DNA from: Glaciihabitans sp.
GTDB taxonomy: Bacteria > Actinomycetota > Actinomycetes > Actinomycetales > Microbacteriaceae
Assembly: GCA_025463785.1 (NCBI GenBank)
Contig: JAODBD010000013.1
Span: 62,001 to 126,000, forward strand
Length of the DNA stretch: 64,000 bases
Reading direction: 5' to 3'
In this document: positions 3,351-56,954 of the stretch, in pieces
Numbering within the stretch: the first letter of the stretch is position 1
Layout: the number at the start of each line of letters is the position of its first letter
Made by a program: the position numbers and the translations under genes
Notes under the pieces: generated by a model
What the model was told of the DNA's origin: nothing
Seen by the model: only the letters and a program-made list of their open reading frames with translations
Database searches by the model: none

Positions 3351-3821
3351 ATGCGACGGTTGCGCACACGGGCGCGAGTGAGACGAATGGCGACGGCCTC
3401 CGTGATTGCAGTGGTGACGGGCCTCGGGCTCGGTGGCTGCGAGTCGACCGATCCCATCCCGACGCCGTCCCCCTCGCAGGTCATTGGCACCTGGACGCAC
3501 GGCAACACGTCGCTCGAGTTCGATCAGGACGGCGCATTCCTGATCACGAACATCCCGACCGGGGTGATCGAGCAACGCGCCATCGCAGCAGGTGGTTCAC
3601 CTGTCGGGCCGAACGTGGATGTTTCGGGCAGCTGGCACATCGGCTCCGGCGGTAACGACGTGGGTGGTGCCCCAGGGGTGCAACTCGATTTCGTGCATCC
3701 GGCCAGGGTTGGCCCGAACACCGGGCTGACGCTCGTCGTCTCGGGCAACTATCCGCCCAAACTCTTCGTCTACCTCGGTAACCCAGACACGCGAGTGCAG
3801 TACGCATTCACGAAGCACTAG
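3351..3821 (+). CDS. Secreted lipoprotein of unknown function
   Basis: The 156-residue product begins with a basic n-region (MRRLRTRARVRRM), a hydrophobic stretch (TASVIAVVTGLGL) and a lipobox GLGGC ending at about residue 32, so it should be lipid-anchored outside the membrane. The mature part is a small beta-rich domain with IGTWTHGNTSLEFDQDGAFLITN, similar in style to lipocalin-like or META-like domains in which a quantity is reported against a blank; the fold is not certain. It appears leaderless (see the -10 element just upstream). No neighbour explains its role: purF converges on it from the other side. Confidence 0.8.
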   Translation: MRRLRTRARVRRMATASVIAVVTGLGLGGCESTDPIPTPSPSQVIGTWTHGNTSLEFDQDGAFLITNIPTGVIEQRAIAAGGSPVGPNVDVSGSWHIGSGGNDVGGAPGVQLDFVHPARVGPNTGLTLVVSGNYPPKLFVYLGNPDTRVQYAFTKH

Positions 3822-4002
3822 CGCACCGTCGCATCAGCGCACCGTTGCACTCGCGGCATCCCGTCGGAGAAACAGTTGCCACGCCGTTGCCACGCGGTCT
3901 GAGCTCGGCGGGTCGCCCGAAACTCCGACCGGAGGACCGTCGCGGTGACGACGGCTGAGGCGGGACGGCAGCCGCACCGGCGGCGACGAGGGCGCTGCGG
4001 TG

Positions 4003-5457
4003 TCAGCTCAGTTGGTTGACTTCGACCCAGGCCAGATATTCGGGCGTGACCGTGCCAGTGATGTAGTCGCCCGTGAAGCAGCTCATCTCGAGTGCTGAGA
4101 CGTTCGATCCCTCGAGGATGGCCGCCTGCATGTCGGCGACCTCCTGGTAGATGAGGTAATCGCTGCCCAACTCGGTGTTAATCTCGGGGATCTTGCGACC
4201 GTGCGCGACCAGCTCGTGTCGGCTCGGCATGTTGATGCCGTACACGTGCGGGTAACGAACCGGCGGCGCGGCAGACGTGAAGGTCACTTTGTTCGCGCCG
4301 GCCTCCCGTGCCATCTGCACGATCTCCTTCGAGGTCGTCCCCCGCACGATGGAGTCGTCGACGATCAGGATGTTCTTGCCCCTGAACTCGCTCGACATCG
4401 CGTTGAGCTTCTGCTTGACCGACTTCTTACGCTCCGCCTGGCCGGGCATGATGAAGGTGCGGCCCACGTAGCGGTTCTTGTAGAAGCCTTCGCGGTATTC
4501 GACGCCCAGCTTCTGTGCCACCTGCATCGCGGCGGGTCGCGAGGAGTCGGGGATGGGCATGACAACGTCGATGTCGCCGCGTGGCGTGTACTTCGCGATG
4601 GTGTCGGCGAGTCGATCGCCGAGGCGCAGGCGCGCCTCGTACACGGAGATGCCGTTCATGATCGAGTCGGGCCTCGCCAGGTAGACGTACTCGAAGGAGC
4701 ACGGGATGAGCCGCGGATTCCTGGCGCACTGTCGAGAGGTCATTTCGCCATCCATCGCAATGAAGACGGCTTCACCCGGCTCGAGGTCGCGCACGATTTC
4801 GTAACCGGCGCTTTCGAGGACGAGGGATTCGGATGCGACGATCCAGTCCTGCCCGACGAACCCGGTCGCACGACGACCGAGAACCAGCGGGCGGATGCCG
4901 TACGGGTCCCTGAAGGCGAGCAGGCCGTGACCGGCGATGAGTGCAATCGCGGCGTACGATCCTTCGACGCGCTCGTGCAGCCGGGAGATTGCGGTAAAGA
5001 TCTGGTCAGGATCGAGTTCGGAGCCACTGACCTGCTCCTGCAGCTCATTGGCAAGAACGTTCACGAGCAATTCGGTGTCACTTGAGGTGTTGAGGTGGCG
5101 ACGATCGACGTGGAACAGCTCCTGCGTCAACTCACGCGTGTTCGTCAGGTTGCCGTTGTGAACGAGGATGATGCCGTACGGCGCGTTCACATAGAACGGC
5201 TGCGCCTCTTCTTCGTTGGCGGCGCTGCCGTGTGTGGCGTAGCGGCAGTGGCCAAGCCCCATGGTGCCGGTGAGGGAACGCATGTCACGCGTTCGGTAGG
5301 CCTCGCGCACCTGGCCTCTGGCCTTGAACATGTGGAAGGTGTTATCGGCGGTCGCGATACCCGTCGAATCCTGTCCACGGTGCTGAAGAAGCAACAGGCT
5401 GTCGTAGACCTGTTGGTTGACGGGTTGTGCTGAGACGATGCCCACAATGCCGCACAT
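4003..5457 (-). CDS. purF: Amidophosphoribosyltransferase
   Basis: PurF transfers ammonia from glutamine to PRPP, the committed step of purine synthesis. The 484-residue protein starts MCGIVGIVS, so Cys2 becomes the N-terminal nucleophile after Met removal; there is no long propeptide. The glutaminase half contains LLLQHRGQDSTGIA, GHCRYATHG and NGNLTN. The transferase half contains the PRPP-binding loop ILIVDDSIVRGTT near residue 365. purF is transcribed away from purM here, with two unrelated genes between them, whereas in many relatives purF and purM are adjacent and co-oriented. Confidence 0.98.
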   Translation of the reverse strand: MCGIVGIVSAQPVNQQVYDSLLLLQHRGQDSTGIATADNTFHMFKARGQVREAYRTRDMRSLTGTMGLGHCRYATHGSAANEEEAQPFYVNAPYGIILVHNGNLTNTRELTQELFHVDRRHLNTSSDTELLVNVLANELQEQVSGSELDPDQIFTAISRLHERVEGSYAAIALIAGHGLLAFRDPYGIRPLVLGRRATGFVGQDWIVASESLVLESAGYEIVRDLEPGEAVFIAMDGEMTSRQCARNPRLIPCSFEYVYLARPDSIMNGISVYEARLRLGDRLADTIAKYTPRGDIDVVMPIPDSSRPAAMQVAQKLGVEYREGFYKNRYVGRTFIMPGQAERKKSVKQKLNAMSSEFRGKNILIVDDSIVRGTTSKEIVQMAREAGANKVTFTSAAPPVRYPHVYGINMPSRHELVAHGRKIPEINTELGSDYLIYQEVADMQAAILEGSNVSALEMSCFTGDYITGTVTPEYLAWVEVNQLS

Positions 5458-40784: not shown

Positions 40785-41609
40785 ATGACCCGCATCGCTT
40801 GTCGTCAGCTGGCTCCCGAGCTCGGAGCAGTGGACGCGAATGTGCGGATGACGACGGCTGCGATTCGCGAGTCAGTGGCCGCGGGCGCCCAACTGGTCGT
40901 CCTGCCTGAGCTGATCGTTTCCGGCTACATGTTTACTTCGGCCGACGAGGCTCGCACCGCGGCCATCACGCCCGAACACCCCGTTTTCGCTGCGTGGTCG
41001 GATGCGGTTCGCGGGGTCGGCGGGGTCGTCGTCGGCGGTTTCGCCGAGCTCGGCGATGACGGTCTCGTGTATAACAGCGCGGCGGTCGTTGACGGCAGCG
41101 GCGTGCTCGCGGTGTACCGGAAGGTCCATCTCTGGGATAAAGAGAAGCTGAGTTTCACGCCAGGCTTTGTGCCTCCACCTGTGGTCGAGACACCGGTTGG
41201 TCGACTTGGCATCCTGGTCTGTTTTGATCTCGAATTTCCCGAGATGACACGCAGCCTCGCTCTGCGCGGCGCCGAACTCCTGGTTGTGCCGACGAACTGG
41301 CCGCTCGAGACTGTGCCCGAAGGCGAACGTGTGCCCGAAGTCACTGTCGGGATGGCGGCCGCGTATTCCAACCGCGTCGGCATCGCCTGTTGCGACCGCA
41401 CGGGAATCGAGCGCGGCCAGGACTGGAACGGTGCGAGCTGCATCATCAACGAACAGGGCTGGGTGATCGCAAACGTCGATGCAGACGGAGTGGCGACAGC
41501 CGATCTGGACCTGCAGCTCTCTCGCGACAAGAGCCTGAGCGCGATGGTCGATTTCTTCGGCGATCGCCGTCCCGAACTGTATGGAGCCGTGACTGCTCCG
41601 AAAGCCTGA
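40785..41609 (+). CDS. Nitrilase/carbon-nitrogen hydrolase family enzyme
   Basis: The 274-residue cytosolic hydrolase has the catalytic triad Glu42 (VLPELIVSGYMF), Lys113 (YRKVHLWDKEK) and Cys146 (GILVCFDLEFPE). Such enzymes hydrolyse amides, nitriles or carbamoyl groups. A nucleobase permease gene of the NCS1 family follows after 35 bp, so it may act on an imported N-carbamoyl or ring-opened nucleobase product; this is inference. A GACACT box five bases before the ATG hints at a leaderless transcript. Confidence 0.92.
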   Translation: MTRIACRQLAPELGAVDANVRMTTAAIRESVAAGAQLVVLPELIVSGYMFTSADEARTAAITPEHPVFAAWSDAVRGVGGVVVGGFAELGDDGLVYNSAAVVDGSGVLAVYRKVHLWDKEKLSFTPGFVPPPVVETPVGRLGILVCFDLEFPEMTRSLALRGAELLVVPTNWPLETVPEGERVPEVTVGMAAAYSNRVGIACCDRTGIERGQDWNGASCIINEQGWVIANVDADGVATADLDLQLSRDKSLSAMVDFFGDRRPELYGAVTAPKA

Positions 41610-41644
41610 ATGCCCTGCCCAGGAATTGTGTGAAGGAGAAACGC

Positions 41645-43135
41645 ATGAGTGAAGTGAAAACTGCGGTCAAGCCACGCGGCCTCGAGGTTCGTTCGATCGA
41701 CTACGTTCCTCACACCGAGCGTCATGGCAAGGTGTGGCACATCGGCCCGCTGTGGTTCATGAGCAACGCGCAGATCGCGACCCTTGCCGTCGGAGTGACG
41801 AGCTTCGCACTGGGCGGCAACCTGATCTGGTCGATCATCGCCATCCTTATCGGGCTGATCATCGGAACAATATTCATGGCCGCACATTCCTCGCAGGGGC
41901 CGAAGCTCGGCATCCCGCAGATGGTGCAGTCGCGTCCCCAGTTCGGATACATCGGTGCACTGCTCGTCTGGTTGTTTGCGTTCCTGCAGTACGCGGGGTT
42001 CAACGTGTTCAATACGGTGCTGGCCGGCTCGGCGGTGTCTCAGGCCGTAAAGACGCCGATCGGCTTCAATCCGTTCTGGGCGATCCTGATCACGCTCGTC
42101 GGTGCAGTCATTGCCCTGTTCGGCTACGACCTCATTCACCGGATGGAGCGCTATCTCGTTTATCTGACAGTGCTCATCATGGCGCTTCTCAGTATTTCGG
42201 CGCTCGTGCACCTGCAGTTGCCGGTCGGCGCGTTCGACCTCGGCCATTTCTCGCCGCTCGCGTTCTTCGCCCAGTTGGGCGTCGTTGCGGGATACCAGAT
42301 CTCGTGGGCGATCTATGTTTCGGACTACTCTCGCTACCTGCCGGCTACTACACCGACCAGCCGTACCTTCCGCTGGACGTTCTGGGGCAGTGCGATCGGA
42401 GGCGCCTGGATCATGTTCCTCGGCGCCTATCTCGCGGCAGCGGTCAAAGGTTTCAACGCGAGTGACCCGGTCGCGGCCATCGAAACAGTGTCGAATGACC
42501 TGTTCCCCGGGTTTGGTACGATCGCGCTCCTGGTGTTCGCGCTTGGACTCATCGCGGTCATCGTGCTGAACATGTACGGCGGCTCGTTGACACTGATTTC
42601 CTCGATCGACAGTTTCAGGAAAGTGCGACCGACGCTGGGCATCCGCATCCTCACCGTCGCGATCACGGCAGCGATCTCAGGTGTCCTCGCGATTTTCATT
42701 GCGGGCAGCTTCGAGTCGTTCTTCGCGGGCTTCCTGTTCCTGGTCTTGTACTTCTTCATCCCCTGGACGGCCGTTAACCTGACGGACTACTTCATCGTCC
42801 GCAAGGGACACTACGCGATCGCGGAGATCTTCAAGCCCCGCGGAATCTACCGTCGTTGGGGTTGGCAGGGAATCACGGCCTACCTGGTCGGCTTCCTTTG
42901 CATGGCGCCGTTCTTCAATGTCGCCGGGTTCTACGAGGGTTTCATTTCGAAGGCGATGGGCGGCGTCGACATCTCCCTCTTCATTGGCCTGCCGGTTTCG
43001 GGGGTGCTGTACTACGTGTTTACCCGCGGCCTCGACGTGAAGTCGGAGCAGGCGCTCGCCGAATCTCAGGCCGCAGACCTTGAGCGAGGGGCACCCGAGG
43101 CGGACGACCTCGCGGGAGCGGTCATCGATCAATAG
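41645..43135 (+). CDS. NCS1-family nucleobase:cation symporter
   Basis: The 496-residue permease has twelve expected helices and NCS1 features (FMSNAQIATLAVGVTSFALG, RPQFGYIGALLVWLFAFLQY, VAGYQISWAIYVSDYSRYLP). The start ATG at 41645 follows GAAGGAG. NCS1 proteins import cytosine, purines, hydantoin, allantoin or thiamine precursors with a cation; this one is not assigned. It pairs with the upstream nitrilase gene. The C-terminal tail is acidic. Confidence 0.94.
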   Translation: MSEVKTAVKPRGLEVRSIDYVPHTERHGKVWHIGPLWFMSNAQIATLAVGVTSFALGGNLIWSIIAILIGLIIGTIFMAAHSSQGPKLGIPQMVQSRPQFGYIGALLVWLFAFLQYAGFNVFNTVLAGSAVSQAVKTPIGFNPFWAILITLVGAVIALFGYDLIHRMERYLVYLTVLIMALLSISALVHLQLPVGAFDLGHFSPLAFFAQLGVVAGYQISWAIYVSDYSRYLPATTPTSRTFRWTFWGSAIGGAWIMFLGAYLAAAVKGFNASDPVAAIETVSNDLFPGFGTIALLVFALGLIAVIVLNMYGGSLTLISSIDSFRKVRPTLGIRILTVAITAAISGVLAIFIAGSFESFFAGFLFLVLYFFIPWTAVNLTDYFIVRKGHYAIAEIFKPRGIYRRWGWQGITAYLVGFLCMAPFFNVAGFYEGFISKAMGGVDISLFIGLPVSGVLYYVFTRGLDVKSEQALAESQAADLERGAPEADDLAGAVIDQ

Positions 43136-45674: not shown

Positions 45675-46133
45675 TCATGCCCGTGGTGCATCGAATCGTG
45701 CGCCTTTCGGATTTGATGGGAGGAGGGTGAGCACAAGCATGATGAGCCCCCCGAGGCTGGGGATGAACGACAGCAGCCAGAACAGGCCGCTGAGGTTTGC
45801 GTCGTGGAGCCGTCGCCAGGTAAGCGCGATACCCGGCACGATGTTGACAAGTCCCCAGATGCCGCCAACCACGATGACGACGATGATTCCCGCGTCGATC
45901 CGAATGCCGTTTCCGCCGGTTCTCCCTGCGAGGAGGGAGGGGATGTAGATGGCCAGCAGGATGGCGACGATGATGAACTGGACCAGTGCCCACCACCAGA
46001 ACTCGCTTCTACTGGCCCGCCCGCTGAAGGTTGCGTATTTGCGCCAGTACCGTCCGACCGCGACTGGAAGGCTCGCCCCGTAAAACGGCGCTGACAGCGG
46101 CACGGTGGTACTCGGCGCTAATTGTTCGGTCAT
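45675..46133 (-). CDS. DUF805 family membrane protein
   Basis: The 152-residue protein contains the DUF805 signature YWRKYATFSGRASRSEFWWW, followed by four hydrophobic helices and ALTWRRLHDANLSGLFWLLS. Function is unknown. AAGGAGGAG lies seven bases before the ATG; a longer reading to 46202 has no support. It sits 81 bp after the sulfatase-like gene on the same strand and probably has its own promoter. Confidence 0.9.
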   Translation of the reverse strand: MTEQLAPSTTVPLSAPFYGASLPVAVGRYWRKYATFSGRASRSEFWWWALVQFIIVAILLAIYIPSLLAGRTGGNGIRIDAGIIVVIVVGGIWGLVNIVPGIALTWRRLHDANLSGLFWLLSFIPSLGGLIMLVLTLLPSNPKGARFDAPRA

Positions 46134-46214
46134 GATGCTCCTCCTTGTGGTTGCAGAACTCAGCAACTCCACTGGACGCGATGGTACCCGGCCGACACCC
46201 ACTGCGAACTGTGG

Positions 46215-47888
46215 CTACCGACCGTATGCCGCGAGGAATCGGTTACGGAACGCATCCATCCGCCACACCGGCGCGCTCGGTGAGGGGAGCATCCCCGGTT
46301 GCCAGTGCCAGGACGAGACGCGGTTAATAACCTTTGGGTCCTTGGAGATGATGCTGATGGGCACATTGTGGGTTGCGCCTGCCCCGCTGACCTCGGTCGC
46401 GGGTTGATGGTCGCCGACAACGACCAGCACAAGGTTCGGGTCGTTGTACGTGGTGAGGAAGGAAAACAGAGTGCTCATTGTGTACTGAACCGACTGGCCG
46501 TAGAGCTGTTGCACATGGTGGGGGTTCTGCCAAACGATGCTCGGCGAGAGTCCCTGGGCTGGCTGGGGGTCATAGATTGAGCCGTTCCCGACAGATGCCC
46601 ACGGCACCTCGTGGGGTAGCGGGGTCCACGGCGTGTGCGAGGACACGAGGTCGATCTCGGCCATTAGCGGTTTGTGCGGTTTTGCCAGTTCGTGTTTCTG
46701 GAAGTACGCCCACGTGTATTGATCGGGGATGCGGGCGTAGCTGAATGCCGGCCCCTGATATCCGACATTCTGTGAGTTGAGTTCGGTACCGAAGTGGTAA
46801 AAGGAGGTACCGATGGACCATGGCTTGGTGTCCGATGGCACATCGCTGACCGTTTGCCATCCTGCCTTCTTGAAGGCGTCGCTGAGGGTGAACCGGCTCC
46901 CAGCGGTGACCTGGTCGTACTTCTGTTGCGAGTCGATCCATAGTCCGGTTTGCAAGGTGGAGTGGGCGAGCCAGCTGATTCCACCGAACGTCGAGGACGT
47001 GAGAAATGCGCTGCGTTCGGAGTAGCCGTCTGCCGCGAGTTCCGCGTTTCCTTTGCGGAGGACGTTGTCGACCCCTTTGGAGAAGAAGGTGTTCTGCACG
47101 GCGACCTGGCCATAGCTCTCTACGAACGCGACGATGACGTCTTTGCCCTTCAAGCCGGTGAGCAGGTCGGATGACGGCAGGTTGGCATAGGGGTCGGTTG
47201 CGCCAGCATTTTTGAACGTCGCCTGCTCGGCGGCGGTCGCGGTCACTTGATTGGCCTTCGCAACTGCCGTGCCGATCGTGTCCGCTGCCGCTATCGGTTT
47301 GCCGGGGACGATCTGGGCGCCGAGGAGTCCGAGCACGATCCAGCCCGCCGTGATCGCAGAAGCTCCGATCAGACCTCCGCGGTAGTGCCGACGGATCACA
47401 TTTGCGAGGTGAAAGTAGGCCACGGCGACTACGAGAACGACGACCGCTGCGGCGAGGACGAGCAGCACGAGGATAGCGACAGCTGCGACCGAGCCGGTGG
47501 AGTCGCGCAGTACACCGTAGGCATCCACCAGTTCCGGCCAGCCGGTCACGATGTTGAAGGGCTCACCGACGGCCAGTGTGAAGCCACGATCGAGAGCTGC
47601 ACTGGTGATCGTCGTGACGAAGACTATTGCGATGAGGGTCGCGACGATTCGACGGGCGACCGGCCATGGGAGTAGCGCCAGAAGGGCGAGGGCGAGTACC
47701 GATTCCAACGGGACACGTACCAGGGCGAGCGCTGTCCCCGAGCTGATGAGTCCTGGCGCAAGGACGGCGAGGAAGACCACGACCACGGAGAGGACCAAAC
47801 GCACATTTCTTCGAATTGCGTTCGAACGGCGGGGCCGGGCATCCCGGTCAGATGGCTCGCCCGAGTTCACGGGGTTAGTCGTACTCAC
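46215..47888 (-). CDS. LtaS-like membrane phosphotransferase / sulfatase-superfamily protein
   Basis: The 557-residue protein has a cytosolic basic N-terminus, five hydrophobic helices (up to about residue 195) and an extracytosolic alkaline-phosphatase-superfamily domain. Features match lipoteichoic-acid-synthase-type enzymes: metal-ligand Glu in VAFVESYGQ (near residue 261), a Ser/Thr-rich nucleophile region SSTFGGISWLAHSTLQTG, and GDHQP near residue 492. It would therefore transfer phospho-alcohols or cleave phosphate/sulfate esters outside the membrane. The GTG overlaps the reductase stop by 4 bp; this is the last gene of a seven-gene operon. Confidence 0.85.
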   Translation of the reverse strand: MSTTNPVNSGEPSDRDARPRRSNAIRRNVRLVLSVVVVFLAVLAPGLISSGTALALVRVPLESVLALALLALLPWPVARRIVATLIAIVFVTTITSAALDRGFTLAVGEPFNIVTGWPELVDAYGVLRDSTGSVAAVAILVLLVLAAAVVVLVVAVAYFHLANVIRRHYRGGLIGASAITAGWIVLGLLGAQIVPGKPIAAADTIGTAVAKANQVTATAAEQATFKNAGATDPYANLPSSDLLTGLKGKDVIVAFVESYGQVAVQNTFFSKGVDNVLRKGNAELAADGYSERSAFLTSSTFGGISWLAHSTLQTGLWIDSQQKYDQVTAGSRFTLSDAFKKAGWQTVSDVPSDTKPWSIGTSFYHFGTELNSQNVGYQGPAFSYARIPDQYTWAYFQKHELAKPHKPLMAEIDLVSSHTPWTPLPHEVPWASVGNGSIYDPQPAQGLSPSIVWQNPHHVQQLYGQSVQYTMSTLFSFLTTYNDPNLVLVVVGDHQPATEVSGAGATHNVPISIISKDPKVINRVSSWHWQPGMLPSPSAPVWRMDAFRNRFLAAYGR

Positions 47889-48631
47889 GACATCCCCATA
47901 GCGAGGGACTTCGTCGCCAGCCGATAGTGATCTTCGGCATCATGCCGCGCAAACCGATCCGAGAGTGCGTAGCGCAGCAGCACCATGTCGCCAATCTGTC
48001 GGACATCCGCGAGAGTCGCGCGTCGGTCACTCGTCCAGGGAAAGCGCGCATCGCCGACGAAGCGGGGAGCGCGCTGGTCGCCGACGAAGAACGGTGCCAC
48101 GGCCAGGTGGAGTTCGTCGACAAGATTCGCGGCCAGAAACTGAGTGTGAACTGTTCCGCCTCCCTCGACCAGGAGCTGGCGAATTCCACGATCAGCCAGG
48201 TCCGCGACGAGGTCGGTCATCGCCACGTCTTTGCCCAGCTCGACGACAACGGCAGTGTGCCCGACCCGTCGACGGATCCGGGCGGCCTCCGATGTGGGGC
48301 AGTAAACCAGCTTCGGTGTGTCACCAGCGGTGAAGAATGCCGAGTTCGGATTGAGTTCACCCGACGCAGTCACAGTTACCTTCCACGGTGAACTCGTCAT
48401 ACCCGCGACCTGTCGTCGAGCTCGGCGAGCAAAGCTGCGGACCAGCAGACGGGGGTTATCCCGCCGCACAGTGCGCGCACCGACCAGGATGGCGTCGTTT
48501 CTTGCCCGCACCTCATCGACGCGGTCGAAGTCTTCGTCGTTGGAGAGGGTGAGCCGCGGGGGATCCGCCCTGTCGAGGTATCCGTCGAGCGAGGTGGCGC
48601 TGCTCAGAGTTACGTACGGGTTGTCTGTCAC
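47885..48631 (-). CDS. RibD C-terminal-type (pyrimidine/dihydrofolate) reductase
   Basis: The 248-residue enzyme has the RibD_C fold: VTLSSATSLDGYLDRADPPR at the start, RNDAILVGARTVRRDNPRLL, and ADRGIRQLLVEGGGTVHTQF near residue 160-180, the NADPH-binding GGG. In riboflavin synthesis this domain reduces the ribosyl group of a diaminopyrimidine; other relatives reduce dihydropterins. There is no deaminase half and no rib operon here. The GTG start follows CAGGAG and overlaps the upstream gene by 4 bp (GTGA). Confidence 0.88.
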   Translation of the reverse strand: MTDNPYVTLSSATSLDGYLDRADPPRLTLSNDEDFDRVDEVRARNDAILVGARTVRRDNPRLLVRSFARRARRQVAGMTSSPWKVTVTASGELNPNSAFFTAGDTPKLVYCPTSEAARIRRRVGHTAVVVELGKDVAMTDLVADLADRGIRQLLVEGGGTVHTQFLAANLVDELHLAVAPFFVGDQRAPRFVGDARFPWTSDRRATLADVRQIGDMVLLRYALSDRFARHDAEDHYRLATKSLAMGMS

Positions 48632-49626
48632 GGTGTCTTCTCCTGACTGCTGTCTGCTATTACGAGAACTGGCGCGGCGAAATTCGTTTTGCCCTGGCGG
48701 ACACTGGATACCACCGTCACAATTGCGCCCGGCGCGACCGAGATGATGACGAGGGCGCCGAACAGAGTTGACGCCGCGACTCCCGCGGCGGCGCCGAATC
48801 CAGCCAGTGCGAATGCCCCGCCCGCGATGCCCTCGCGGGGTCCCCATCCGCCGATGTTCAGCGGGATCGAGGCGCCGAGCAGGACGACGAAAGCGAGGGT
48901 GAGCATCCGACCTGGGGGCACGCTCTCGCCCACTGCAGCCGTGGCGATCGTGAAGGTTGCGACGTGGCACGCGATGACAATCACCGAAGCGATCGCGACC
49001 TGCACGGAAACCCGAGCCGATCCGAGGCCGGCACGGAGTTGCCGCGCCTCGTGAAGCAGCGCCCTGCGCCCACGCAGGCTCACCACGGCCGTCACAAGTA
49101 GCGCAACGACGATCACGCCAAGTCCGATCGCAAGCGCCCCGACGAGGTAGCCCTCGAACTCTGCTCCGAGCCATGCGAGAACCGCGAGCGCCAGGGCGAG
49201 TTGTACAACCTGCCCTGCGGAGCGTTCGATTGCGACCGATCGTGCCGTTTGTTTGATGCTTTCGGCGCTCTGACCGCGGGCGACTGCGCGCCGAAAATCC
49301 CCGACGATTCCGCCGGGAAGCACCGTGTTCAGGAATTGGGACTGGTAGTACATCCCGAATGCGGTCGACCACCGAAGTTCGACTCCGAGGCGGGTTGCGA
49401 TGAGTCTCCAACGCCATGCGGCGGCGGCCGTTGCGACCGCTGCGAGAATGAGGGCCGAACCGATCGTCTGCCCGTCCAGGCTGAGGAGGCCGTGGAGCAG
49501 AGGGCCGGTACCCACCTGAGCGATGACCGCGATGAGCACACCGACCCCGACGACCAGACGGGTCGTCACGCGGAGCCGGGTCGATCGCCTGGCCTGGCGC
49601 AGCAGGGTACGGATGTTTGTTGTCAT
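48628..49626 (-). CDS. Flippase-like / LPG-synthase-type integral membrane protein
   Basis: The 332-residue protein has eight or so helices and the signature of the lysylphosphatidylglycerol-synthase transmembrane (UPF0104) family: MYYQSQFLNTVLPGGIVGDF (about residues 85-104) and IPLNIGGWGPREGIAGGAFA (about 255-275). It lacks the soluble aminoacyl-transferase domain of MprF, leaving only the flippase-like part, so it may move a lipid intermediate across the membrane. The ATG overlaps the methyltransferase stop (ATGA), and its own stop overlaps the reductase GTG. Confidence 0.88.
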   Translation of the reverse strand: MTTNIRTLLRQARRSTRLRVTTRLVVGVGVLIAVIAQVGTGPLLHGLLSLDGQTIGSALILAAVATAAAAWRWRLIATRLGVELRWSTAFGMYYQSQFLNTVLPGGIVGDFRRAVARGQSAESIKQTARSVAIERSAGQVVQLALALAVLAWLGAEFEGYLVGALAIGLGVIVVALLVTAVVSLRGRRALLHEARQLRAGLGSARVSVQVAIASVIVIACHVATFTIATAAVGESVPPGRMLTLAFVVLLGASIPLNIGGWGPREGIAGGAFALAGFGAAAGVAASTLFGALVIISVAPGAIVTVVSSVRQGKTNFAAPVLVIADSSQEKTP

Positions 49627-50444
49627 CCGCGAGGCCATGCCAGCAGATCCACGTGACGCACGTGCGCAGTCAGCTCGCCGCGATCGATTTGGGACTCTCG
49701 AAGTTGCCGGTAACCCGTGGCTGCGGCGCGCAGCCCGGGATCCTGCTCGACGGCGGCGTCGACCCATCCGCGGAACCATTCCCTGAGGAGGCGAGGCCGG
49801 CGGTGGTCGAGCCGCCACACCGTGGTGCTCTGGCGTACCTTCCAACCGGCCTGGGTGAACAGTCCCTGCACGATTGGCGCGCCGTACCGACCGAGCTGTT
49901 GGCGACCGTCCGTGTTGCGTTGTTGATGGGCATTGAACGCATGCTCGAAGGCGGAGTCGAGTTCGTCTCGCGGGCCCAACCTCACCTCTCCGGTCACGCT
50001 GAGCGTGAAGAGCGCCGGGCTCCGGGCTTCGACACAGGCGTTGACGACGGCGTGAGTGTCGCGTGAGGTCAGCACGTCAAGTAGCGCGGATGCGGTCACG
50101 AGGGATGCCCCAGCCAGGTCGGCTGCGCGCAGGTCGGCGAGGTTCCCGGTTTCGGAGCGCGCAGAGATGGCGGCGTTGTCCCGATCCGTTGGGCGTGTGG
50201 CATCGATGGCTCGTTCGATCAGGCCCGCGTTCCAGTCATGCAGAATCCAGGTCTGCGGTCCGGGAAGAAGGGGAGCGAGCCAGCGCATCATTGAGCCGGT
50301 CCCGCTGCCCAGATCGTGAACGACAATCGGCCCGTCGGGGAGCATCGCTGCGACGGTCCGTGCGAGGTCGAGTGAGCGTGCATCTGCGTCCTCCGGCTCG
50401 CGGAGCGCAAGCCAATCGCTGCTGACCTTGAGAATCCCGCTCAT
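49623..50444 (-). CDS. Class I SAM-dependent methyltransferase
   Basis: The 273-residue protein has motif I in IVVHDLGSGTGSMMRWLAPL (about residues 40-59), an acidic residue at the end of strand 2 (WILHDWNAGLIERA), and LVTASALLDVLTSRDTHAVV in the motif IV position. The C-terminal part (WRLDHRRPRLLREWFRGWVD) is not like well-known families. The substrate is unknown, but the position between a glycosyltransferase and a flippase suggests a pathway intermediate. Both junctions are ATGA overlaps. Confidence 0.85.
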   Translation of the reverse strand: MSGILKVSSDWLALREPEDADARSLDLARTVAAMLPDGPIVVHDLGSGTGSMMRWLAPLLPGPQTWILHDWNAGLIERAIDATRPTDRDNAAISARSETGNLADLRAADLAGASLVTASALLDVLTSRDTHAVVNACVEARSPALFTLSVTGEVRLGPRDELDSAFEHAFNAHQQRNTDGRQQLGRYGAPIVQGLFTQAGWKVRQSTTVWRLDHRRPRLLREWFRGWVDAAVEQDPGLRAAATGYRQLRESQIDRGELTAHVRHVDLLAWPRG

Positions 50445-51526
50445 GCGGACACCGCCGTTCCGCTGAGTGCCACCTCATGGAGCGTTGACTCGATGATGGC
50501 GATTGGTTCACTCCATGGTCGGGGTGTGGCCCGAGCCTCCATGGCCGCCATCCTGAGTTCCGTTCGACGTCCCGGACTTGCCCACCACTGGCGTAGAACG
50601 ACCTCCAGCGCCCACGGATCCTCCGGGGGAACAAGGATTCCGGCAGCCGTGACCGACATCGCCTCGGGGGTTCCGCCAACATGGGCGGCAACGACGGGGA
50701 TGCCGCGCGCCAACGCCTCGGCGACCACCATCCCGAAGCTCTCGTTCCTGGATGGCACAACGACAAGGTCTGCCCGGCTGTAGGCGGTGTCGAGCGATCG
50801 TCCGGCGAGAACGCCGGCGAACGTTGCTCTGCCGGTGAGGTTGGTTCGCTGAATGGTTTGCGTCAGTTCGTCGACAAACCCTGGCGCCGCGTCGAGTGAG
50901 CCGACGAATGTGCAACTCCAATCGTCGATGTCGGTGAGGTGCCCCAACGCGCTGACGAGAAGGTCCTGCCCCTTGTGCGGCGCAATCACCCCTACGCACA
51001 GCAACCGGCCGCCGGATTGCGACGCGGCCGCGGCCGCAGCCGGATCCGTTCCCGGATGGGCGACAACCACCTGGTGAAGTTCCGCGAAGCCACGCGAGAT
51101 CAGCTCGGAGCGCGTCCAGTCGCTGGTCGCAATGATGCGCTTCGCTGCCCCTAACGCTGCACGTTCGCGACCGACTGACACGGCGACCTCGGTAGCTTCG
51201 GCGATCGTTCCGGAGGTGAGGCTTGCGACCATGTGCGCCAGCACTACAATCCGAAGCCTGCTCGAGTGTGCCGTCATCACCTCCGATTCGAGCACAGCGA
51301 TCAGCCCATCGATCAATACGAGGGCGCCGTCCGGCAGCTGAGATAGTGACCGCGCTGTCATTGATCCGCTCCGCGCTGGGATCAGGATCATCCGCACTTC
51401 CCATCCGCTGCGTCGGAGACCCTCGCGAACGTGCTGGTCGTATACGTTGCCACCGCTCACCCTGTCGGGGTCATCGATCGTGTCAGGGACCAGGAAATAA
51501 ACCGACATTCCCGCGAATGCACTCAC
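50441..51526 (-). CDS. Glycosyltransferase, GT4 family (GT-B fold)
   Basis: The 361-residue protein starts near [20 protein letters not shown], with the N-terminal GT-B subdomain, and contains [20 protein letters not shown] and the donor-binding E-x7-E motif in [20 protein letters not shown] (about residues 270-290). It should transfer a sugar from a nucleotide donor; acceptor is unknown. The GTG at 51526 overlaps the upstream stop by 4 bp (GTGA); an ATG at 51508 is the alternative start. No signal or membrane segment is seen, so it acts at the cytosolic face. Confidence 0.88.
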
Positions 51527-51921
51527 AGTGACCTCGAATAGCTCGCCCACGCGATGTGCGACTCGTGAAGCGAGACGGTGATGGATTGCAGCTGTTGGTT
51601 GCTGCCGAGAGATCCATCAAATACCCGTTCTGCAAGGCGGTCCGCGATCACTCTGCAGAGCACCTCGGTAGTTGTGTTCGCGCCGCCGAATTGAGGATCT
51701 TCGTCGAGGTTGCGATACGTGAGCGAACCCCTGATCTCGGCGAGCAAGGCCGACGCACGTCCGATGTCGACGACAACGCCGGTCGGGTCGAGGTCCGCTG
51801 CCTCGAAGCTGGCGTCGACGATGAATGTCGCGCCATGGAGTCGCTGCGCAGGCCCGAATGATTCGCCCGTGAAGCTGTGGGCGACCATCATATGGTCCCG
51901 GACCGTTACCGTGAAAGTCAT
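51523..51921 (-). CDS. 6-pyruvoyl-tetrahydropterin synthase-fold protein with altered active site
   Basis: The 132-residue protein has the T-fold length and layout of PTPS/QueD: VAHSF with His15, [15 protein letters not shown] with His29, [16 protein letters not shown] with the conserved Asp, and [20 protein letters not shown] with the substrate-binding Glu. Compared with the family, the HGH motif is HGA (third zinc ligand lost), the Cys a few residues before it is missing, and the LDH catalytic His position reads TYR. It is therefore not a standard synthase. The ATG overlaps the dehydrogenase stop (ATGA). Confidence 0.82.
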
Positions 51922-52898
51922 CCTGGTTCTCCCCAATTGATCGTGTGACAAAGGTCGGTGCGCGAGCCGCCGGCGATGCTGGCCATCACTTCGGGAAGAT
52001 CTCGCCACGAGGATTCGCCCGTAAGCAAGGCGTCGAACGCCGGATCGTGGAGGAGCTCAAGAGCCAGCGCGAGGCGTTCGCGGGTCGTCCGGTCCCCACG
52101 CCGTCTCGCGGCCACTGCGCCGACCTGGCTCGACCGGATCGTCAGTCGTCGAGAGTGGAAATCGGCGCCGAGCATGAGGGTCGCTGGGCGATCCGCGTAC
52201 CAGCTGGCCTCGATCACCACGCCCTCAGTGACGACCGTTTCGAGCGCAAGTTGCAACCCAGCATCCGAACCGCTCGTGTTGATCACGATGTCTCGGTCCC
52301 GCGGCGGGTTTGCGATGTCAGCGAAGCCCACGCCGAGTTGGTCGGCTACCGTTCTTCGCGCCGGGTTGATGTCGATCAGCGCGACATCGACACCCGGGAT
52401 GCCCCGCAGGAGGCGTGCGACGCAGCAACCGATCATGCCGGCACCGACTACGGAGACGCGATCACCGACGACAGGCGCGGCATCCCAGAGCACATTGATG
52501 GCGGTTTCGACCGCGCCCGCGAGCACGGCGCGGCGTGCTGGGACTCCGTTGGGAACCGGGATGACGGCGTCAGCGGGGACGACAAATTCGGATTGGTGAG
52601 GGAAAAGAGTGAAAACGACGTGCCCCGTTAGAGACTCCGGCCCGCGTTCCACGACGCCGACGTTGAGGTATCCGTATTTGACAGGACCAGGGAAGTCGCC
52701 CTGCTGGAAGGGCGCTCGCATCCGTTCACGCTCGCTTTCGGGCACGTGTCCGCCGAAGACGGAGGCTTCGGTTCCGCGACTGACGCCGGTGTGCAGGGTC
52801 TTCACGAGTACGTCTCCATCGCCAACTTGCGGGAGCGGTTCGTGGCGGAGAGCGCCGACACCGGGCCTCTCGACCCAGAACGCGGTGGCCTCGAGCAC
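51918..52898 (-). CDS. MDR-superfamily dehydrogenase, zinc-less BchC-like type
   Basis: The 326-residue enzyme has the MDR N-terminal GroES-like domain with [15 protein letters not shown] where zinc enzymes have Cys-Gly, and the Rossmann segment [20 protein letters not shown] (about residues 146-165). The SRGTE loop resembles BchC-type dehydrogenases that lack catalytic zinc. It should reduce or oxidise a hydroxyl/carbonyl of the pathway intermediate. A GTG start follows GCGAGG with six-base spacing. It is the first gene of the operon. Confidence 0.85.
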
Positions 52899-52974
52899 AT
52901 TTGCCTCGCTTTCGTGAACACTGGTTATGCGACTGATGTGTGAATAGTTGTGTTAACAGGGAAACGAGACAGGC

Positions 52975-53721
52975 ATGACCAGAGTTCAATTGGCACCGAT
53001 CTCATCTGCCGTCGCAGGCGCCGTGGTCGTCACGCTTCTCGGTGTGGTGGCTCTGCACTGGCACCAGTTATGGGTCCCCGCGGTGGGTTGGCTTGCCGCG
53101 CTCGGTTACCTGATGATTTCGAATGCGCTGCTTCTCCGCGGTGTGCAGCAAAGACAAATAACACGGTTCGGAGCGGCGAACGTCGTGACGGCGGTGCGGT
53201 CAACGCTGGTCGGTGTGATTAGCGGGGTCGTCGTTTCATCCTCCGTTGCGCCGATGCCGGTGGGTCTTCTGGTTGCCCTGGTAGTGCCGGCCCTTCTCCT
53301 GGATGCTGTGGACGGGTGGGTCGCCCGACGCACGAATTCCGCCAGCGAGCTCGGGGCGCGATTCGACATGGAAGTCGACGCGTTCCTGTTGCTCGTACTG
53401 AGTGCGTACGTTGCGCAAACCTTAGGGATCTGGGTGCTGGCGATCGGCGTGATGCGGTATGCCTTCGTCGCTGCCGGATGGATCTTTCCCTGGCTTCGTC
53501 GGCAACTCCCATTCCGTTATTGGCGCAAGGTGGTGACCGCTGCGCAAGGCATCGCGTTGACGATCGCCGCGACAGGGTTCCTTCCCGTGCTTGACGTTCT
53601 GGTCGTCGCGATTGCGTTGGCGCTGCTCATCGAATCATTTGGCCGTGACGTTGTCTGGCTGGCCGCGAGGCGGCGAGAGCCTAGCTCGCCCGCGTTGCCC
53701 GGAGTGCAAAAATCGACGTGA
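52975..53721 (+). CDS. CDP-alcohol phosphatidyltransferase
   Basis: The 248-residue membrane enzyme shows the exact family motif D-x2-D-G-x2-A-R-x8-G-x3-D-x3-D in LDAVDGWVARRTNSASELGA and following residues (about residues 103-127). It transfers a phosphatidyl or related phospho group from a CDP-activated donor to an alcohol. Six to eight helices are expected. It diverges from the seven-gene operon (76 bp apart) and so probably supplies or uses its lipid intermediate. It overlaps the convergent membrane-protein gene by about 40 bp. Confidence 0.92.
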   Translation: MTRVQLAPISSAVAGAVVVTLLGVVALHWHQLWVPAVGWLAALGYLMISNALLLRGVQQRQITRFGAANVVTAVRSTLVGVISGVVVSSSVAPMPVGLLVALVVPALLLDAVDGWVARRTNSASELGARFDMEVDAFLLLVLSAYVAQTLGIWVLAIGVMRYAFVAAGWIFPWLRRQLPFRYWRKVVTAAQGIALTIAATGFLPVLDVLVVAIALALLIESFGRDVVWLAARRREPSSPALPGVQKST

Positions 53722-54294: not shown

Positions 54295-55116
54295 ATGACC
54301 GGGCTCATTGTGGTTCTCGTTGTCGCCGGCATCCTTGTGCTGGTCGCGCTTGGGCTTGCCATCCATGTCGTGACTCAGTACGAGATGGGAGTTCAGTTCC
54401 GGTTTGGTCGAGTGGTCGGCACGAAGAAGCCAGGGCTCGTCATAATCATTCCCATCGTGGATCGGCTCACCAAGGTGACCCTGCGCATTATCACGATGCC
54501 GATCCAGTCGCAGGGGATCATTACCAAAGACAACGTCAGCGTCGATATTTCCGCCGTTGCATACTTTCGGGTCATCGACGCCGTGAAGTCGGTTGTGGCG
54601 ATCGAAAATGTCTATTCCGCCATCGATCAGATCGCGCAGACCACACTGCGCAAGGTAGTAGGCAAGCACACGCTCGACGAGATGCTTGCCGAGACCGATG
54701 TCATCAATGCCGACATCCGGAAGATTCTCGACGTCACCACGCTCGACTGGGGCGTGGAGGTCACCCTCGTCGAGCTGAAAGACATCCAGCTGCCCGAATC
54801 GATGAAACGGGCCATGGCCAAGCAGGCGGAAGCCGAACGGGAGAAGCGAGCCAAGATCATCGCCGCCGAAGGCGAATCCCTCGCCGCCGCGGCACTCGGT
54901 GACGCCTCCGACACCATGATGGCCCATCCGCTCGCGCTACAGCTCCGGAACCTGCAGACCCTCATCGAACTCGGCGTGGACAAGAACACGACCGTCGTCT
55001 TCCCCGCCCCGCTCATGAGCACCATCAGCGAACTCGGCGCATTCCTGGCCCGCGAGACCGCGACTGCTGCGGCGCCAACGGGCGGTGCGTCAACTGCGGT
55101 CATCCCGGATCCCTGA
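54295..55116 (+). CDS. SPFH/band-7 family protein (stomatin/slipin type)
   Basis: The 273-residue protein has an N-terminal membrane helix (LIVVLVVAGILVLVALGLAI, about residues 3-22) followed by the band-7 domain: YEMGVQFRFGRVVGTKKPGL, RIITMPIQSQGIITKDNVSV, DAVKSVVAIENVYSAIDQIA and later AMAKQAEAEREKRAKIIAAE. SPFH proteins form membrane microdomain oligomers; the partner NfeD protease is not found nearby. TAGGAG lies before the ATG. Confidence 0.94.
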   Translation: MTGLIVVLVVAGILVLVALGLAIHVVTQYEMGVQFRFGRVVGTKKPGLVIIIPIVDRLTKVTLRIITMPIQSQGIITKDNVSVDISAVAYFRVIDAVKSVVAIENVYSAIDQIAQTTLRKVVGKHTLDEMLAETDVINADIRKILDVTTLDWGVEVTLVELKDIQLPESMKRAMAKQAEAEREKRAKIIAAEGESLAAAALGDASDTMMAHPLALQLRNLQTLIELGVDKNTTVVFPAPLMSTISELGAFLARETATAAAPTGGASTAVIPDP

Positions 55117-55517: not shown

Positions 55518-56954
55518 GTGGATGTGATCACTCGCCCCACGCCCCCTGCACCAAGGCGTCCTGCCACGCCTGACGCCTCGGCTGACGCCTCGCGTCGACC
55601 GACGAGGGGCCGAATCATCGTGCGCCGTGTGGTTGCCGGGCTGGTGGTGGTTCTGCTGGTTGTCGCCGGCTACGTCGCGTTCAACTACCAGTCGCTGGTG
55701 TCAGGCATCACCCACATAAATGCGCTTGTGCCTGGCGGCACGAGCGCCAACAAGGACGAAAACATTCTGCTTGTGGGGGACGACCATCGTCCTGCTGGTG
55801 CATCGGCCGCAGAACTCGCACAACTCGGCACGACCCAGGATGGCGGCGGGCTGCAAACCGACACCATAATGTTGCTTCACATTCCTGCCGACGGCCGCAA
55901 TCCGACTCTGATCTCGTTCCCTCGCGATTCCTGGGTGAATGTTCCCGGCGTCGGCATGCGAAAGATCAATGCGGCTTTCGAGATCGGTGCGACTACGGGC
56001 GGCGATAGCGGTGGCGCTCGGATGCTGGTTCGGATTATCCAGAACATGACCGGACTGACGGTCACACATTACGTTCGAATCTCGATGCTCGGGTTCTATA
56101 ACGTCGTCAATGCGCTGGGCCCGGTAACCGTGTGCCTCAAGGGACCCGTCAGCGATCGATATTCCGGCATAAATCTGCCTGCAGGCAACTCGACGCTCAC
56201 GGCAAAGCAGGCGCTCGCCTTCGTGCGGCAACGGCATGGGCTGGCCGGCGGAGACCTCACGCGCGAGGCGCGCCAGCAGTATTTCCTGTCAATCGAGGCG
56301 AAAAACATAGTTACCGCCGGAACGCTGCTCAACCCCGTCAAACTGCACAATGTCATCAGCGCAGTAAGTTCATCCATACAGACTGATCCGGGCCTGAACC
56401 TGCTCAACCTCGCCGCCCAGCTGAAGGGTTTCAGCGGTCACATCGGATCGGCAACGATCCCAATCCTTGGCACGCCGACAATTCAAGTGGGCGGAACCTA
56501 TGTGTCTATTGTGCAGGTGAATTTTGCCGCGATGCCTGCCTTCATCGCTGGGGTCGTTAGCCCAACCTCAAGCTCACCCGCGACTCCAGCACCGGTGCCG
56601 TCGACCATCTCGCTTACGGTGCTGAACGGCGGCCAGGTCACAGGCGCGGCGGCCGCAGCGACCAAGTCGTTGACCAAAGTCGGGTTTGTCACGGGAAAAC
56701 CCTCGACCACGATCAGCCAGCCCAAAACTACGGTGAACTACCCAAGTGGCGGTGCGGCGAAGGCGGCCGTGATCGCCCGCTATCTACCGGGTGCCGTGAC
56801 CAAATCAGTTCCCGGCTTGACCCAGATCCAGGTGGTGCTCGGAGCCGATGGAGTGGCCGTGAAGATTGCGGCCGGCGGGACCGCGCCAAGCGGCAGCTCC
56901 ACCGCCAAACCGCCACCGACCACGACCTACGGCTCCGCGTCCTGCGTCTCCTGA
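55518..56954 (+). CDS. LCP-family (LytR-CpsA-Psr) cell-wall polymer ligase with LytR_C domain
   Basis: The 478-residue protein has a Pro-rich cytosolic start, one membrane helix (VVAGLVVVLLVVAGYVAFNY, about residues 38-57), an LCP domain with DTIMLLHIPADGRNPTLISF, PRDSWVNVPGVGMRKINAAF and ARQQYFLSIEAKNIV, and a C-terminal LytR_C segment (TISLTVLNGGQVTGAAAAAT). LCP enzymes attach teichoic acids, arabinogalactan or capsule to peptidoglycan. The GTG start is tentative; another GTG lies two codons later. Confidence 0.93.
   Translation: MDVITRPTPPAPRRPATPDASADASRRPTRGRIIVRRVVAGLVVVLLVVAGYVAFNYQSLVSGITHINALVPGGTSANKDENILLVGDDHRPAGASAAELAQLGTTQDGGGLQTDTIMLLHIPADGRNPTLISFPRDSWVNVPGVGMRKINAAFEIGATTGGDSGGARMLVRIIQNMTGLTVTHYVRISMLGFYNVVNALGPVTVCLKGPVSDRYSGINLPAGNSTLTAKQALAFVRQRHGLAGGDLTREARQQYFLSIEAKNIVTAGTLLNPVKLHNVISAVSSSIQTDPGLNLLNLAAQLKGFSGHIGSATIPILGTPTIQVGGTYVSIVQVNFAAMPAFIAGVVSPTSSSPATPAPVPSTISLTVLNGGQVTGAAAAATKSLTKVGFVTGKPSTTISQPKTTVNYPSGGAAKAAVIARYLPGAVTKSVPGLTQIQVVLGADGVAVKIAAGGTAPSGSSTAKPPPTTTYGSASCVS

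Follow-up and report, generated by a model that had tools for sequence, protein, structure and literature searches.

An actinobacterial gene cluster conserved around a PTPS-IV protein combines enzymes of GTP-derived pyrimidine chemistry with glycosyltransferase and lipid genes

We analysed a 64,000 nt stretch of the genome of Glaciihabitans sp., a member of the Microbacteriaceae (contig JAODBD010000013.1, positions 62,001 to 126,000; hereafter the window), which harbors an eight-gene cluster combining pterin- and pyrimidine-type enzymes with enzymes of lipid and glycan assembly. Seven genes, here named adh, ptps, gt4, mt, flp, ribD and ltaS, span positions 52898-46215 on the minus strand, and the eighth, cdp, diverges from their head. 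All seven minus-strand frames are open. With the start codons inferred and the minus strand read, stop and start codons overlap by 4 bp at all six junctions: ATGA at adh/ptps (51921-51918), gt4/mt (50444-50441) and mt/flp (49626-49623), and GTGA at ptps/gt4 (51526-51523), flp/ribD (48631-48628) and ribD/ltaS (47888-47885). This arrangement had been described in an earlier interpretation of the letters alone (the sequence-only reading), and both it and the family assignments made there were confirmed. The 76 bp between the divergent starts of adh and cdp (52899-52974) presumably house the promoters of both directions. A scan of the window with Rfam gave no family at the gathering score.

The protein encoded by ptps (51523..51921, minus strand; 132 aa) has a T-fold (PF01242, 1.5e-24) and is the single match to the PTPS family in the window genome. 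It is orthologous to SCO6650 of Streptomyces coelicolor (PDB 3d7j; sequence match 9.7e-50) and carries FGPAQ at residues 22-26, which the excerpted text of PMC5445326 gives as the signature of the PTPS-IV subfamily. Among 23 PTPS-IV sequences F22, G23 and A25 are invariant, and P24 and Q26 occur in at least 90%. Catalytic PTPS and QueD proteins have an HGH zinc motif and an upstream Cys; the window protein carries HGAT at residues 29-32, where these relatives have HGH, and no Cys before it. A31 was found in 23/23 sequences, and the C-terminal Glu (E120) is likewise invariant. The structure paper on SCO6650 is said to report that zinc and PTPS activity are lost.

The ribD gene (47885..48631, minus strand; RibD_C 6.9e-42) encodes a stand-alone pyrimidine reductase of 248 aa that has no deaminase domain. 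Its highest NCBIfam score was obtained with TIGR01508, the archaeal-type 2,5-diamino-6-ribosylamino-pyrimidinone-phosphate reductase (127.6 bits), followed by ribD_Cterm (123.8 bits) and bacterial RibD (83.6 bits), all three under cut-off; the best PDB match (1e-33) is labelled merely "Conserved protein". The product of adh (51918..52898, minus strand, GTG start; 326 aa) is a medium-chain dehydrogenase with a zinc-ADH match of 0.00047, under the Pfam cut-off. Its best NCBIfam match was BchC (44 bits, far under cut-off), and a PDB sequence search at E 1e-6 gave nothing. S40 appears to replace the usual catalytic-zinc Cys. The gt4 gene (50441..51526, minus strand, GTG start) codes for a GT4 glycosyltransferase of 361 aa (Pfam 1.7e-26), and mt (49623..50444, minus strand) for an S-adenosylmethionine-dependent methyltransferase of 273 aa, with a Pfam match of 0.001 that is also under the cut-off.

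Three genes belong to the lipid and envelope side. The cdp gene (52975..53721, plus strand) encodes a CDP-alcohol phosphatidyltransferase of 248 aa (CDP-OH_P_transf 2.1e-13). Its motif D110xxD113G..AR..G..D131xxxD135 is intact and conserved in 28/28 aligned sequences, and agrees with DxxDGxxAR...GxxxDxxxD, the motif of these enzymes. The AlphaFold model fitted best to PGP synthase 7drk (TM score 0.74 by target), with a weak Foldseek E of 0.015, and did not reveal the acceptor alcohol; motif and fold are shared with CDP-alcohol phosphatidyltransferases such as PGP synthase 7drk, AF2299 and PIPS. The flp gene (48628..49626, minus strand; 332 aa) codes for a flippase-like membrane protein of the UPF0104/LPG_synthase_TM family (1.2e-29). 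The LtaS-like gene (46215..47888, minus strand; 557 aa) encodes a membrane-anchored phosphotransferase of the alkaline-phosphatase superfamily, as assigned from fold and conserved site. The window protein had no Pfam match, two of five scanned relatives (L080, L071) passed the cut-off for Pfam Sulfatase, and a PDB sequence search at E 1 gave nothing. The best PDB matches of its AlphaFold model (mean pLDDT 83) were LtaP and LtaS (E 4e-9, TM score 0.35/0.46). E257, T300 and H418 are conserved in 20/20 sequences, D493 and H494 in 19/20, since L048 stops before them; these are presumably the Thr nucleophile and the metal ligands of LtaS-type enzymes. The protein thus has the alkaline-phosphatase fold, nucleophile and ligands of this type. 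It shares N-terminal helices, an alkaline-phosphatase-fold domain and the conserved Glu/Thr/His/Asp/His with LtaS, LtaP and EptA, but identity is only about 14% at TM scores of 0.35-0.46, and the gene is not universal in the cluster.

The sequence-only reading had named conserved gene order in other actinobacteria, with or without a GTP cyclohydrolase gene, as support for a common pathway, and lack of co-occurrence as its refutation. The gene set turned out to be conserved across several actinobacterial families. A scan of GTDB species gave at least 579 stretches, and the best 80 of these all came from Actinomycetota: Micromonosporaceae, Streptomycetaceae, Actinomadura, Nocardiopsis, Pseudonocardiaceae, Nocardioidaceae, Geodermatophilus, Microbacteriaceae and three Thermoleophilia metagenome-assembled genomes. 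Most of the gene set was also present in L104, one short contig of a Thermoleophilaceae metagenome-assembled genome. Since only the best 80 stretches were taken, the frequencies lean to closer relatives, and as two search patterns were used, a gene may count twice. Genes were called in 96 loci (L025-L044 and L046-L124 minus L049, L104 and L109) from open reading frames (ORFs) of at least 90 aa within about 10 kb of PTPS (phmmer 1e-4), and a gene recorded as missing is one not in view. L104 and L109 are short. L045, L046 and L049 duplicate the genomes of L027, L029 and L033; L045 and L049 were omitted, and L029 and L046 were both counted. Frequencies refer to the 54 loci of at least 20 kb among L046-L124 (8 from Microbacteriaceae, 46 from others), for which ptps was the search anchor.

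In all 54 long loci ptps is accompanied by adh and gt4. Outside Microbacteriaceae (n=46), adh, ptps and gt4 were present in 46 loci, flp in 45, cdp in 42, mt in 41, ribD in 32, ltaS in 22 and a creatininase-type gene in 19. Apart from the eight genes, the ORF groups that occurred in more than 10 of the 96 loci comprised GTP cyclohydrolase II (GCHII, gene gch2), the creatininase-type gene and a third group, labelled ABC-ATPase-like by eye. Within Microbacteriaceae the full eight-gene order was seen in 15 of 22 loci. The exceptions are L026 (contig end), L033 (reduced), L038 and L043 (ltaS on the other side, L043 also without mt) and L044, L023 and L024, which represent three small genomes. The 4-bp overlaps recur in the relatives as well: at gt4/mt in 72/81 testable loci, ribD/ltaS in 19/25, mt/flp in 50/80, adh/ptps in 42/95 and flp/ribD in 23/61, counts that have no matched control and include one genome twice (L029, L046). 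Given this recurrence, the overlaps are more than chance. With the overlap at ptps/gt4 in 71/93 loci, translational coupling between the two chemistries seems to exist in many lineages.

Co-inheritance was followed in one draw of 249 genomes of the family, taken to be Microbacteriaceae. PTPS-IV was found in 23 of them and mt in 21, all among the 23 carriers of PTPS-IV (both at E<=1e-3); cdp and flp were found in an identical set of 24 genomes, 22 of them PTPS-IV carriers (E<=1e-8). Hitchhiking of unrelated genes was rejected on the basis of this co-inheritance of mt, cdp and flp with PTPS-IV and of the conserved order in the 22 loci. The distance matrices of seven genes correlated with values of 0.69-0.94 (47 loci and the window, without a control gene); a common descent of the species would by itself produce high correlations, and we give these little weight. 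In a draw from the whole phylum, 73/396 genomes matched the PTPS profile at all and nine reached E 1e-40; the PTPS-IV subfamily is therefore patchy. Gene content, gene order, co-inheritance, motifs and predicted folds of the cluster are established by these data.

GCHII, whose gene the sequence-only reading had mentioned in connection with such support, lies within the cluster in 42 of the 46 long loci outside Microbacteriaceae. We compared a switch residue of this enzyme that presumably determines whether the diamino product is formed (Tyr) or the reaction ends with the formyl product (SCO6655 has Met here). SCO6655 reportedly stops at the formyl intermediate and stands for the FAPy-forming type of GCHII; that Met at this site yields the formyl product was reportedly found by Spoonamore in 2006. 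The residue was Tyr in 34/34 cluster cyclohydrolases without a creatininase-type gene in view. It was non-Tyr (Met 11, His 9, Gln 2), as in FAPy-forming GCHII, in 22/22 cyclohydrolases with a creatininase-type gene in the locus; the window has no cluster GCHII, so this comparison does not apply to it. No cyclohydrolase is in view in L064, a further creatininase-type locus. In the excerpt of PMC2853524, SCO6655 is listed simply as GTP cyclohydrolase II of riboflavin metabolism.

The switch residue would fit a role of the creatininase-type protein as a deformylase. According to the excerpted text of PMC9478397, a creatininase-superfamily enzyme, the formamidase BrbF, deformylates exactly this formylated GTP-derived pyrimidine in alpha-proteobacteria. 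Superfamily and type of substrate would be common to both, but BrbF serves riboflavin, and the cluster protein, likened to it by description, is nearest MftE among the NCBIfam models. In a tree of 28 of the 56 cluster sequences and the RibBA-type enzyme of the window genome, the Tyr cyclohydrolases formed one clade (100/100), and the non-Tyr cyclohydrolases grouped with this RibBA, with weak support for their unity (91/58). The RibD_C proteins of the cluster also fall into two distantly related groups, on long branches. That two GCHII lineages and two RibD_C groups share one gene context argues that the cluster needs a diaminopyrimidinone and its reduction. The early riboflavin route of the archaeal/fungal type uses a cyclohydrolase, ArfB, and a reductase that acts before the deaminase. 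The cluster resembles it in the cyclohydrolase, in the pairing of the non-Tyr variant with a creatininase-family protein, and in the deaminase-less RibD_C; it differs in having no deaminase domain and, where this could be located, no lumazine synthase, with tailoring and lipid genes instead.

In the window genome the only GCHII match is the 451-aa RibBA-type frame on another contig (C9:533821), with Tyr at the switch residue. It sits between a lumazine synthase gene (C9:533237) and a 404-aa frame bearing RibD_C (C9:535727). We infer that this organism draws its precursor from the riboflavin trunk.

Part of this neighbourhood has been described before. An account of 2017 reports PF00925 and PF01872 next to PTPS-IV for a cluster of 561 sequences; its excerpted text labels PF00925 FolE2 (the Pfam name is GTP_cyclohydro2) and names cyclohydrolase and RibD_C only, with adh, GT4, mt, cdp, UPF0104 and LtaS-like partners unnamed there (PMC5445326). 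The clusters analysed here share with the PTPS-IV/SCO6650 group an orthologous sequence, FGPAQ and a neighbourhood containing PF00925 and PF01872. The term "undescribed" used in the sequence-only reading was therefore too strong for a system with a solved SCO6650 structure and a published neighbourhood. In the open-access literature we found no description of the lipid and glycan partners or the product of the PTPS-IV cluster, which is weak evidence of absence; nothing was found on pterin lipids, and for the whole gene combination at most one review of PTPS paralogues. The cluster represents a real, widespread pathway that branches from a known trunk and is uncharacterised in the open-access literature.

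We consider it moderately probable that this conserved actinobacterial cluster channels GTP into a diaminopyrimidinone of the riboflavin trunk set aside for this purpose, and builds from it an aminopyrimidine- or pterin-type product. This product would be glycosylated and, as a rule, methylated; in the majority of carriers it would be bound to a phospholipid or borne by one, and would cross the membrane. The reactions, their order and the product are what we infer from the genes. GTP cyclohydrolase II would form 2,5-diamino-6-ribosylamino-4(3H)-pyrimidinone 5'-phosphate from GTP; the enzyme would be the housekeeping RibBA-type protein in the window organism and elsewhere the cluster copy, acting alone if the switch residue is Tyr and together with the creatininase-type deformylase if it is not. 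RibD_C would then turn the ribosyl into a ribityl group with no prior deamination. PTPS-IV, a T-fold protein that has no HGH zinc motif, may bind the pyrimidine or pterin via its conserved Glu and, together with the dehydrogenase, remodel or cyclise it. GT4 would add a sugar and the methyltransferase a cap, cdp and the UPF0104 protein would make and flip a lipid-borne form, and the LtaS-like enzyme, where present, would transfer a phospho-group outside. The data strongly suggest the early steps, and glycosylation of the product is likely. For the idea of the sequence-only reading that a pteridine- or aminopyrimidine-derived group is attached to a membrane glycolipid or secreted polymer, this means that its aminopyrimidine/pterin half is well supported; attachment to a lipid is plausible, with the near-strict co-inheritance of cdp and flp speaking for it and two reduced lineages against it.

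Several observations weigh against this pathway. The clusters of the window and of Microbacteriaceae contain no cyclohydrolase gene. RibD_C is not in view in 14/54 long loci, 12 of these creatininase-type, which leaves the reduction step unsupported there. The switch-residue pattern tracks clades and is the result of few evolutionary events, not of 56 independent ones. Only 24 of the 34 loci with no creatininase-type gene in view have at least 20 kb; the other 10 are shorter, and one of the 34 has just 807 bp beyond gch2; as the creatininase-type gene is more than 3 kb away in 10/22 positive loci, some of its absences may be contig ends. Three creatininase-type proteins stayed under both NCBIfam cut-offs and were nearer MftE (133-147 bits versus 172) than ArfB (30-40 versus 180). 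On the lipid side, the LtaS-like gene is not in view in 24/46 long loci outside Microbacteriaceae. L103 (8937-12179) and L049/L033 (L049 563-3829) keep adh-ptps-gt4-ribD and have no mt, flp or ltaS, and the genome of L033 (G054, 90% complete) has no match to mt, cdp or flp. Conversely, G014 and G189 carry a cdp-flp pair (L164, 8803-10288, and L165, 5714-7302) with no PTPS or MT anywhere in the genome. No other cluster gene was recognised in the stretches around these pairs apart from one weak dehydrogenase match antisense to cdp, which suggests a stand-alone phospholipid synthase/flippase module. Since reduced loci keep gt4 after losing the lipid genes, we assign GT4 to the pterin core. In view of the reduced loci and the pairs in G014 and G189, cdp-flp forms a lipid module that accompanies this core in nearly all cases, with exceptions.

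Mainly because these modules can part, we put forward only tentatively, as a possibility short of probable, that the cluster makes a new class of actinobacterial membrane lipid that carries as its headgroup a GTP-derived ribityl-pyrimidine or -pterin, glycosylated and methylated, with PTPS-IV as a zinc-independent T-fold enzyme that forms or remodels the ring. Such a lipid could be a membrane-bound redox carrier, a chromophore or an envelope decoration. A less likely alternative is that the cluster makes a pterin or aminopyrimidine glycoside that stays soluble, for which cyanobacterial pterin glycosides are a precedent; the lipid genes would then serve only to make or export an accompanying lipid or a carrier. 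The universality of adh, ptps and gt4 alone in the long loci (ptps being the search anchor), the loci L103 and L049/L033 and the independent cdp-flp pairs all agree with this. It is harder to reconcile with the otherwise strict restriction of cdp and flp to PTPS-IV genomes (22/24) and with flp in 45/46 long loci outside Microbacteriaceae.

We regard it as improbable that the pterin is a redox cofactor of an enzyme modifying lipids or envelope glycans, and no part of the product, with the genes sharing an operon. Tetrahydropterin-dependent lipid enzymes exist, and such a role would account for halves that adjoin and yet are separable, but no oxygenase was among the ORF groups recurring in over 10 of the 96 loci, and GT4 remains with the pterin genes where lipid genes are lost. 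A second or spare riboflavin pathway, as GCHII and RibD_C are riboflavin-type enzymes, is very improbable and was disfavoured: that pathway joins a deaminase domain to RibD_C with lumazine synthase alongside, unlike the cluster, the window genome has its separate riboflavin locus on another contig, and lumazine synthase is single-copy in 12/12 carriers searched and lies away from the cluster in the 4/4 with shared numbering (G000, G030, G055, G103). We give equally little credence to synthesis of coenzyme F420, to which an unpublished remark in the excerpted review PMC5041015 ties PTPS-IV: CofD was over cut-off in 15/23 PTPS-IV genomes and in 96/226 non-carriers, and the expectation that carriers always have CofD failed in the other 8/23, with no CofD found in five genomes of 99-100% completeness among them (G030, G055, G087, G125, G178), which disfavours this role in these bacteria.

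The arrangement of the locus varies. Three genomes of 1.1-1.8 Mb, of which two are only 78-84% complete, have two blocks, cdp-flp-gt4 and adh-ptps-mt-ribD, separated by about 1-2 kb, with a weak RibD_C match; that such small genomes retain both blocks side by side speaks for the proposed pathway. A rearranged cluster was kept by the streamlined Microbacteriaceae L155, L156 and L044; L155 (G030) has an inositol-monophosphatase-family gene between the halves and an FkbM methyltransferase gene there on the other strand. Immediately downstream of its reduced cluster, L049 carries another RibD_C gene (3786-4349, minus strand), and Nocardiopsis alba L059 (11548-14245, plus strand) carries genes for an MFS transporter and a Methyltransf_19 protein between gt4 and mt. 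Near the cluster in the window are genes for an SPFH/Band 7 protein (54295-55116, plus strand) and a LytR-CpsA-Psr envelope ligase-type protein (55518-56954, plus strand). A DUF805 membrane protein gene lies directly 3' of the LtaS-like gene (45675-46202, minus strand), and a cytosine/purine-type permease is encoded about 3 kb past the cluster end (41390-43135, plus strand).

If the proposal is correct, it would provide a function for PTPS-IV, an enzyme subfamily that has a known structure but no assigned role, and would explain why some streptomycetes retain a formyl-stopping cyclohydrolase. The carriers include streamlined genomes of 1.1-1.8 Mb with few accessory genes. The cluster would then stand for a GTP-derived pyrimidine branch that ends in the cell envelope, probably in hundreds of actinobacterial species.

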